A DNA stretch of 64,000 nucleotides from Deltaproteobacteria bacterium (lineage in GTDB: Bacteria; Myxococcota; Myxococcia; Myxococcales; SZAS-1). Of the stretch, positions 21,667 to 43,113 are shown piece by piece; the first letter of the stretch is position 1, and each line of letters opens with the position of its first letter. The stretch lies in NCBI GenBank assembly GCA_018266075.1, contig JAFEBB010000028.1, positions 1-64,000 of the forward strand, in the 5' to 3' direction. Below the pieces are notes generated by a model that worked only from the letters and a program-made list of their open reading frames with translations, ran no database searches and had not been told where the DNA came from. Position numbers and translations under genes: made by a program.

Positions 21667-22146
21667 TCACTTCTCTGTTTCGCGCTGCCGCCGCTTCTTC
21701 GCGGCGGCGGGCGCGAACAGCTCCGTTTGGACGGAATGGAGTTCTTCCCTCGCGTCGTGCCGCTCGATGTATTGGCGCACCGTCTCCGCAGTCACGCCGT
21801 CTCCCACGCTTCTCACGAAGTAGCTCGGGCTCCACATCGCATCGCTGTAGAATCTTCGACGCAGGTACGGAAGCTTCCGGAGCATGTGGCGCGCGCTCAG
21901 GCTCTTGAACAGCCGCACTGCTTGGCCCACCGACAGCTGCGGCGAGATCTCTGCGTACAAGTGCACGTGATCGACATCCACTTCGAGCGCCAGCACATCC
22001 ATCTCGTATTTCTCACCGACCCGCCGCAGCAGTCTCTCGCAGTACTCCCGCTCCTCCTCCTGCGTCAGCGCGCGCCTCCTCCGTTTCGTCGCCCAGACCA
22101 AGTGGTAGCGACAATCGAAGACGGCGTGACTGCTCCTCCGAAACAT
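21667..22146 (-). CDS. Y1 transposase, IS200/REP-associated type
   Basis: The 159-residue single-domain HUH endonuclease cuts and joins single-stranded DNA at hairpins. The HUH motif is VDHVHLYAEI, and the catalytic tyrosine is expected in VRQYIERHD. Other family marks are YHLVWATKRRRRAL at the start, LFKSLSARHML and WSPSYFVRSVGDG. All key residues are present, so it could be active. It lacks TnpB or any accessory gene, as in IS200 and in chromosomal RAYTs. Flanking palindromes and dispersed GC-rich hairpins in the neighbourhood are the likely substrates. The ATG at 22146 gives the usual family length. Confidence 0.85.
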   Translation of the reverse strand: MFRRSSHAVFDCRYHLVWATKRRRRALTQEEEREYCERLLRRVGEKYEMDVLALEVDVDHVHLYAEISPQLSVGQAVRLFKSLSARHMLRKLPYLRRRFYSDAMWSPSYFVRSVGDGVTAETVRQYIERHDAREELHSVQTELFAPAAAKKRRQRETEK

Positions 22147-39724: not shown

Positions 39725-39817
39725 GGAAACGGCCGTCCAAGTGCTCATGAACACTATGGATTGTATCCATCGGTCAACACACCACTACAGATAGTGGGTG
39801 GATCGAAGTGGCATGAT

Positions 39818-39918
39818 CCAGGTTCCTGGTGGCTGGTTGCTGGTTCCTGGCGGATTGCAGATCGGGCGGCCGATCAGGCGTTCACAACCAGGAACGAGGA
39901 ACCAGGAACCAGGAACGG
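39818..39918. repeat. inverted repeat built from GGTTCCT units
   Basis: The left arm (39818-39850) is made of GGTTCCTGGT-like units and the right arm (39886-39918) of their complement (AACCAGGAAC), around a 35-nt centre containing GGCCGAT. The arms match well but not perfectly. With the two palindromes above, it fills the gene-free 320-bp stretch 39652-39971 between mraZ and the lipoprotein gene. Confidence 0.65.
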
Positions 39919-39971
39919 AACGGGTCACGAGCTTGCGAGCGAGAAGATCCGATGCGAGATTGCGCAGCCGA

Positions 39972-41124: not shown

Positions 41125-41448
41125 ATGGCAGCCAAGAGCACCACCACCACCCTGACGACCAAGCAGGTCGCGACCGCCCTCGACAAGGGCGTCGTCACCG
41201 CCGAAGAAGAGCGCGCGCTGCGGATGCGGCACGGCGCCAAGGTCTCGCCCACCGCGCCCCTGCCGCAGAAGGCCGCCGCGGGCAGCGAGGCCGCCGACGA
41301 GCTGCTGCTGATGGAGATGCAGCTTCTGAAGGCGTATCGCGCGCACCTCGCCAGCCAGGGCCGCGGCCCGTCGGCGGTGAAGGCCACGCCGACCACGCAG
41401 AACCGCGCCAAGGACAAGATCGTCCGCGCGCTGCGCAAGAAGCGCTAG
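41125..41448 (+). CDS. small basic hypothetical protein
   Basis: The 107-residue protein starts at the ATG at 41125 (GGAG 9 nt upstream); an ATG 8 codons earlier is possible. It opens with MAAKSTTTTLTTKQV, has a helical middle (VVTAEEERALRMRHG, then ADELLLMEMQLLKAYRAHLA) and ends with a Lys/Arg-rich tail (KDKIVRALRKKR). I see no known domain. Size, charge and helicity would suit a nucleoid or ribosome-associated factor, but nothing proves it. A terminator hairpin follows, so it is monocistronic. Confidence 0.65.
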   Translation: MAAKSTTTTLTTKQVATALDKGVVTAEEERALRMRHGAKVSPTAPLPQKAAAGSEAADELLLMEMQLLKAYRAHLASQGRGPSAVKATPTTQNRAKDKIVRALRKKR

Positions 41449-41470: not shown

Positions 41471-41508
41471 CGGCGGCATTCGGGCTCGACCCGGGTGCCG
41501 CCGTTCTC
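41471..41508 (+). terminator. terminator hairpin after the 41125-41448 gene
   Basis: CGGCGGCA and TGCCGCCG form the outer stem, with CGGG/CCCG continuing inside. TTCTCGTTCC follows. It stands 23 bp past the stop and just before the structured 158-nt element. Confidence 0.55.
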
Positions 41509-41530
41509 GTTCCAGAGGAAATTTCGCCTG

Positions 41531-41688
41531 CCCCAGAGATTGGTTGGGGCGACCTCGGATCGCGCCGGGATTTTCGACGAGGTCGAGGAGCGAGGAGGAG
41601 CGTGCCCGAATGCACGTGACGACGCAGCGACGATGAGATCGGCGAAAAGACCCAGCGAGGCGAGGAGCGACTCAACCGATTTCTGGGG
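41531..41688 (+). ncRNA. candidate structured RNA element with closing helix
   Basis: The two ends pair completely. CCCCAGAGATTGGTTG (41531-41546) and CAACCGATTTCTGGGG (41673-41688) form 16 bp, 14 Watson-Crick and two G-U, if the plus strand is transcribed. Inside are further stems, GACCTCG with CGAGGTC (41551-41557/41578-41584) and CGTGC with GCACG (41601-41605/41612-41616), and a purine-rich linker of GAGGAGCG units. It fills most of the gap between a terminator and the convergent gene ending at 41689. The short ORF across it has no ribosome site. Wobble pairs fit RNA rather than DNA pairing on this strand. The family is not recognised; a mobile repeat is the alternative. Confidence 0.45.
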
Positions 41689-43113
41689 TTAGTTCGCAGC
41701 GCGCGCGATGAAGCCCGAGAGCAGCTTCGCGAGCTCCGGCGCGCTCCCCACGATCGAATCGCGGTTCAACGACGTCTCGCTCGCGTGCGCGCGCAGCAGC
41801 TCCGACGCGTGCGGATTGCGCCACCAATCTTCATCCGCGTGCTCGATGAGCGCTCGGTGCAGCCGCTCGCTGAGCAGCAGCGCGCGCAGCTCGCTCGCGC
41901 AATCGATCACGTCGAGCGCGAAGCAACCCGTGGCCGGCCCGTCGACGCCCGTCGCCGAGTTGATTCGCGAACGCGCGTGATCTTTCGCAGACTCGGTCGG
42001 ACCTTGATTCGCGAGCTCGCGCGCAACCAGAAAGCGCGCCGCCGCGAGCCGAAGCGCGAAGAGCGAACGCAGCGCGAACGCCTGGGCCAGCTCGTGCGCA
42101 GGGCGCGAGGGATTTCGCAGCACGCGTCGATGCCATGCGGGCTCCACGAGCGGCCGCGCGAGAATCCAACCCGTCGATTTCGCGAGCGACGGATCAATGA
42201 GCACCGCATCGTCGCCGTCGAGAAGCGCCAGGTGAATCGCCTCTCCGACTCCACGTGCGAGCGTCTCTCCATCGGCCGGAGTGCCCAGCGGCGCCGCGAC
42301 CACCGCGAGCTCGTTCGCTCCAAATCGCGCGACCACGAGCCCCGGAACGCGCCCCGGCCGCGCTTCCGCATCGACTGCGATTCCACGAGGATCCAGCCCC
42401 ACGCCACGCGCAAGCTCCCGGGCCAGCTCCAGCGAACGGTGCGGCGAGAGGTGCTCGCGGAGATCCAGCAGCTGCAGCGCGAGCTCGAAGTCGTGGCCCG
42501 CCCCGCCCCGCCCCGCGTCGACGCCCGCGCGCCGGAAGCGGAACTCGAGCAGATCGTGCGCGGCATCGTTCGTCTCGCGAAGGATCCGTTCCGCATCGGC
42601 CGCGAGCGCACCCAGCTCGAAGCCCAGCAGCGGATTCAGCGCGTTCTCGCTCGAGAGCTCCAGCCGCGTGCGCGATTCGAGGCGCCGCTCCAACGCTTCG
42701 GCCTGGTGGTGCTCGATGGCACGAAGGGCGTCGTCGACGGCCTTGGCCAGGAGCGCGCGCCGCCGCCGATCGACGCAAATGGGCAGCTCGCGAAGCGCCT
42801 CGGGCAGCGCGAGCAGCTCCAGCTCCACGCTCACCTGCCCGCCCGCCAGCGCCTCGAGCGCCCTCGACTCCGCGCGCGCGGCCGCGACGTCACCCAGCTC
42901 GCGAGCGAGCGCCAGCGCGAGGGGAAGCGCGTTCGCGTCGCGAGCCGCCAGGAACGGCTCGGGCGTGCCCAGCGCCGGCGCGCGTGAAGCCAGACCCGGC
43001 AGATCAACCGACTTGCGGATGCCCGCCTGCCAGCCCGCGAGGGCGCGCGCCCGACGCTCGCGCTGGACGCGGAGGGCTTCCAGCCAGGCGTGGTTGGGCT
43101 GCGCGAGCGACAT
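41689..43113 (-). CDS. hypothetical alpha-helical protein
   Basis: The 474-residue protein is almost entirely helical, rich in Ala, Leu, Arg and Glu, with no signal peptide. No family is recognised. Towards the C terminus there is a block, [20 protein letters not shown] then [15 protein letters not shown], that resembles the end of M3-type zinc peptidase folds, but no HExxH motif is present anywhere. It may be a peptidase-fold relative without metal or an independent family. Its stop directly abuts the structured element at 41531-41688. It is divergent from metK, with the metK promoter in the 124-bp gap. Confidence 0.65.

Follow-up and report, generated by a model that had tools for sequence, protein, structure and literature searches.

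Four systems described in bacteria stand closest to the locus reported here. RUP of Streptococcus pneumoniae is proposed to be moved by IS630-Spn1 (PMC2229807). The Correia/NEMIS repeats of Neisseria are dispersed and 107-155 bp long, the 107-bp form often being fused into genes (PMC2229807). REP/REPIN sequences with their RAYT are palindromic, extragenic and dispersed (PMC3733652), and IS1272, a member of the IS1182 family, replaces a hairpin without any duplication (PMC5678879).

The locus consists of positions 41531-41688 of the window, by which we mean the whole stretch of 64,000 nucleotides that was analysed. It shares with RUP that it is a short non-coding repeat with TA at its ends, that these ends are similar to those of a resident IS630 element and that a transcript would fold as a long stem-loop. 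In contrast to RUP it belongs to a family of its own in a GC-rich host, and has a conserved G.A core which is shared across the myxobacterial phylum and is also found with IS1182-like ends. Terminal inverted repeats, TA, dispersal and a long hairpin are held in common with Correia/NEMIS, from which the element is set apart, as judged by description, by its position at stop codons and by a core that is conserved far beyond one genus. Like REP/REPIN it is palindromic, extragenic and dispersed, but it has 158 bp, lacks the GTAG/CGTC tag and is not consistently accompanied by a Y1 transposase. The likeness to IS1272 concerns a relative of the window copy: in the genome G011 an IS1182-family element lands at hairpin elements, although it inserts at TCA, either where a gene ends in TGA or next to the B end of a copy, and duplicates this TCA. 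Among open-licence papers no myxobacterial description of the element family was found.

The hairpin and its setting

The original prediction had described a candidate structured RNA whose ends pair in all 16 positions, two of them G-U. This pairing is present and is continued by two further pairs, and the end-to-end fold is one rod with 18 outer pairs. Its MFE is -83.6 kcal/mol compared to -54.4 +/- 4.1 kcal/mol for 200 dinucleotide shuffles (z -7.1), none of which was as good, in agreement with the small odds that had been given to a chance fold. The - strand folds worse (-64.0 kcal/mol), leaving the + strand better by about 20 kcal/mol. The original prediction had not recognised a known RNA class in the fold, and Rfam gave no match for the whole 64-kb window or, at a permissive threshold, for the hairpin region. 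For six relatives Rfam also gave no match, the gathering threshold being reached by no known RNA family.

The element sits between two convergent genes: the one on the + strand ends at 41448, and the ORF on the - strand ends right next to the element (Table 1). A terminator just ahead had been thought to separate it from the upstream gene; a hairpin does exist there, but its T tail is poor and about 1.8 terminator-like sites are expected in that region by chance. A strong hairpin between convergent genes could itself represent a bidirectional transcription terminator. We regard this as extremely improbable, because the U-tract is missing at both ends, a separate terminator-like hairpin is located upstream, and the sequence occurs in many copies that bear the marks of insertion. 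A scan for sigma-70 types revealed no promoter-like site near the element.

Table 1. Features of the hairpin element and its borders, in window coordinates.
Feature	Position	Strand	Remark
Terminator-like hairpin of upstream gene	41471..41503	+	poor T tail; outside the element
A-end junction CTG	41528..41530	+	other A ends read CTAA
A-end terminal inverted repeat CCCCAGAGATTGGTTGGG, 5' arm of terminal helix	41531..41548	+	pairs with 41671-41688
Conserved core hairpin with tandem G.A loops	41558..41662	+	covariance models R1 and R2; R2 89.6 bits
G.A-array region and apical stem-loop, approximate extent	41586..41628	+	drawn rod; tandem GA/GA loops
B-end terminal inverted repeat, CCCCAGAAATCGGTTGAG on the - strand	41671..41688	-	recurs in other copies
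TAA at B-end junction (TA target remnant and terminal A of the element)	41689..41691	-	stop codon of the 474-aa ORF

The A end of the window copy matches other A ends of its own genome, GCCCAGAGATCGGTTGGGGCGA. The TA expected at 41528-41530 is no longer visible, which indicates that the A end was altered since insertion. At the B end the frame of the ORF (41689..43113, - strand, 474 aa) is shared by the junction TAA and the flank, which is coding by GC3. No further copy in the window is convincing; the runner-up match to R2 has 18.7 bits (E 0.014). This weak match lies in an intergenic part (39797-39956) with repeated GGTTCC/CCAGG-type motifs and is probably unrelated.

Copies in the same genome and in SJ252

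The 221-bp neighbourhood of the hairpin matches nine other places in its own genome (G000). The copies on C97, the far end of C28, C21 and C47 are 81-96% identical to the window copy and all stop at contig ends, as would be expected of a short-read assembly that breaks on repeated sequence; for several copies only one half is known, at the end of a contig. Other matches are end fragments, and C70 and C109 represent a second subfamily. Near relatives of the window copy in this genome number at least four, mostly cut by contig ends.

Further copies come from a search of 60 relatives, which gave twelve matches in the Myxococcales MAG SJ252 (JADLDB01). In this assembly there are at least 12 copies; exact end sequences and core matches number 24 each. 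The internal copies that are intact measure 158 or 159 bp, except for one of 149 bp with a 9-bp deletion. They are bounded by CCCC...GGGG, and in nearly all of them YTAA precedes and TTAR follows the copy, placing TA on both sides. One must keep in mind that the TA pattern of the window subfamily is read from such flanks, and that empty sites demonstrate a duplication, that of TCA, for related elements only.

With 158 bp, no coding capacity, multiple copies and terminal inverted repeats, the locus has the properties of a MITE. As judged by its sequence it is a copy of a dispersed element of the MITE type, about 158 bp long, and not a single-copy RNA. The candidate structured RNA thus survives in part: the structure is real and selected, but its terminal helix is formed by the terminal inverted repeats of a mobile element and is not that of a stand-alone RNA gene.

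Probable transposase partners and stop codons

At C14:46098-47127 the genome G000 has a full-length element of the IS630 family, its only intact one, which measures 1030 bp and has TA at its flanks. Two overlapping frames encode its HTH_28 and DDE_3 domains, and at its 3' side it abuts a stop codon. The NCBIfam IS630 match of this transposase is 97.8 bits, just under the cut-off of 100 bits. DDE_3 reaches its cut-off once in G000, in this intact element, and once in SJ252, in a truncated copy. At locus L036 (1563-2518) the coding sequence of the IS630 transposase is split over two frames, which overlap and give 138 and 190 aa; this arrangement suggests a frameshift, programmed or degenerate.

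The ends of the insertion sequence and of the MITE are identical in 22/28 positions in G000 (B-end consensus versus the 5' end of the IS630 element on C14) and in 22/27 positions in SJ252, where the IS630 remnant ends with CCCCGGAGATCACTTGAGTAGGGC and the MITE with CCCCGGAGTTCACCTGGGTAGAGC. Equally good windows are few in a both-strand background of 1.2 Mb, about as many as there are MITE copies in the searched loci. From the shared ends and the resident IS630 element we infer that an IS630-family transposase would move the window-type element, as was proposed for RUP and IS630-Spn1. It cannot be the partner everywhere, since core-bearing genomes without IS630 exist; the family is absent from G011 (5.03 Mb) and from most other genomes searched.

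Such a transposase would recognise the ends of about 18 bp and insert the element at TA. On either strand the first base of the element is A and the last is T, and a TAA or TAG target would be restored in place as TAA, which would make copies at gene ends harmless. The convergent gene (474 aa) would by this route receive its stop codon from the window copy, and at this site the element probably ends a gene and does nothing harmful. The junction triplets are stop codons in 25 out of 31 cases of the SJ252 type, with TGA and TAG variants among them, and in 7 out of 10 in G000; 15 of the junction stop triplets share the reading frame of an ORF with 60 or more codons that is coding by GC3. Survival at harmless sites could account for the stop-codon positions of the TA-type copies without special targeting. 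Taken as a whole, the locus is very probably a non-autonomous MITE that an IS630-family transposase would have moved into TA and whose core fold is under selection.

The same core occurs with other ends in G011, a genome in one contig of 5,029,329 bp. It contains at least 77 exact end sequences and therefore more than 35 copies, nearly all of them 161 bp long. Two relatives, G031 and G034, provide an empty site that reads GTAGCGGTCAACCGTG, compared to GTAGCGGTCA, the element and TCACCCGTG in G011, and two more sites of this kind were found. This comparison reveals a duplication of TCA and proves that elements of the same kind as the one in the window have inserted in a related genome. In G011 TCA forms both the left and the right triplet, in just one orientation, and neighbouring copies in a tandem have a single TCA in common. 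At the B end, 23 coding flanks have a stop triplet as their end, and in all 23 the junction TGA is the in-frame stop; of the few copies that end in TGAA, most fit a stop one base further out. As a baseline, 21 out of 109 CTGA in neighbouring DNA are in-frame coding stops. Selection against gene damage will explain part of this excess. A 40-bp remnant in this genome (G011:C1:91830-91869) consists of the two end repeats, the whole core being lost.

G011 also carries an IS1182-family element (NCBIfam E 2e-110) whose ends agree with those of the copies in 14/20, 13/20 and 12/20 positions, and whose TCA target and orientation are those of the copies. Five copies of IS1182 were found, each next to the B end of a hairpin element, and the position of one coincides exactly with the stop codon of a gene. 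IS1182 is a plausible partner in G011, less firm than IS630 in G000. Locus L222 (1-1850; G011:C1:116200-118050) has the order hairpin element, TCA, IS1182, TCA and stop codon of the gene; IS1182 and the hairpin element use one stop codon here, in the same orientation.

The conserved core across the phylum

The covariance-model search which the original prediction had named as a check was carried out with two models, R1 built from the inner 106 nt of seven copies and R2 from 41 diverse matches. R1 matches 17 out of 145 genomes of the order; R2, at E <= 1e-4, matches 39 out of 195 genomes and 29 out of 90 genera of the phylum. In an alignment of 40 distinct sequences 89.7% of the cells are paired, and the compensatory changes looked for at the same time were found, with two-sided changes in 30 out of 33 pairs. 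The covariation score is 0.574 compared to 0.163 +/- 0.011 for shuffled and at most 0.09 for slid alignments. The 40-sequence alignment was fitted to the model, and its counts therefore lean towards the structure; considering the size of the effect, and that a first small MAFFT alignment already had two-sided changes in 9 out of 33 pairs, we take this bias to be minor. The fold is a real structure under selection.

Inverted repeats get corrected by template switching. The compensatory changes might thus be mutational, one arm of the quasi-palindrome being copied onto the other, a process to which a 158-bp palindrome would be subject even if it had no function. It would, however, erase mismatches, yet three consecutive 2x2 loops remain GA/GA in 30-36 of the 40 sequences, whereas the Watson-Crick pairs that separate them alternate between G-C and C-G; the total length, moreover, stays near 157-166 in distant genomes. 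We hold this explanation to be highly unlikely.

The tandem G.A loops are confined to one strand, and all 24 members that were folded (24/24) are better on that strand. Selection acts on the fold of one strand, and the mismatches prevent a perfect palindrome. Both points suggest that it is the single strand, once folded, which matters, be it in replication (ssDNA) or in transcription (RNA), and the conserved strand could act as either. In the reading preferred by us, the inner ~105 nt would form a rod-like hairpin with a tandem G.A run on one strand, kept by selection for pairing, which most likely acts when its strand is single and would aid the spread or the tolerance of the element.

According to the RNA alternative the locus is mainly a structured RNA with a function, as a stabiliser in the 3'-UTR or as a small RNA, which transposition has amplified and which is now kept at each site for this function. 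The strong compensatory evolution, the non-canonical loops conserved on one strand only and the position of the copies just past stop codons are in agreement with it. In G011, however, it is always the B end that faces the gene. The mRNA of the gene next to a copy would therefore contain the CT-rich strand, which folds less strongly, and this argues against a function of the strong fold in the 3'-UTR there. In SJ252 the copies are nearly identical and hence young, and their presence does not require selection over long periods at every site. We consider this alternative rather unlikely.

A site for single-strand transposition or recombination that reads the folded + strand (IS200/IS605, REP/RAYT, integron attC) would agree with the strand asymmetry of the fold and the fixed orientation at TCA in G011. 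The SJ252 ends, CTAAC...GTTAG, also resemble attC, but this is seen in SJ252 copies only: the own-genome ends CTAAGCCC fit neither the attC core (RYYYAAC/GTTRRRY) nor the REP tags GTAG/CGTC. REP/REPIN sequences are also shorter (20-40 bp), and the ends of our copies match those of DDE transposons. Y1_Tnp is equally common in genomes without the core, while G098 has the core and no Y1_Tnp, and we rejected Y1 transposase as a general partner. Altogether such a site appears very improbable. The window itself encodes a strong Y1_Tnp domain of the IS200/REP-associated type at 21760-22122 (- strand, 112.5 bits).

Returning to the MITE presumed to be moved by IS630, the window copy by itself would be ordinary; the family is not, being a variant of IS630-type MITEs with a core that is found across the phylum. 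Bacterial MITEs are usually viewed as two ends and a passive middle, whereas here the middle is conserved and the ends vary. We tentatively suggest, as a possibility, that a rod-hairpin G.A module borrows the ends of unrelated transposases (IS630 with TA, IS1182 with TCA), and that it directs, or allows, insertion in a fixed orientation exactly at stop codons. If true, this would represent a class of satellite transposons that need, besides their ends, the folded strand in order to spread. Regeneration of TAA, or the oriented duplication of TCA at TGA stops, would provide the means of harmless spread through gene-dense genomes. Both the conserved middle and the insertion habit can be tested together in one genome with more than 35 copies.

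For about half of 40 distant copies the hairpin-end finder ran into the flanks, and stop-codon counts for the genomes concerned are excluded here. Two genomes, G165 (L270, L271, L273) and G025 (L287, L293, L294), contain copies of ~160 nt whose terminal helices differ in sequence and yet remain paired, as though several subfamilies coexisted in a single genome.
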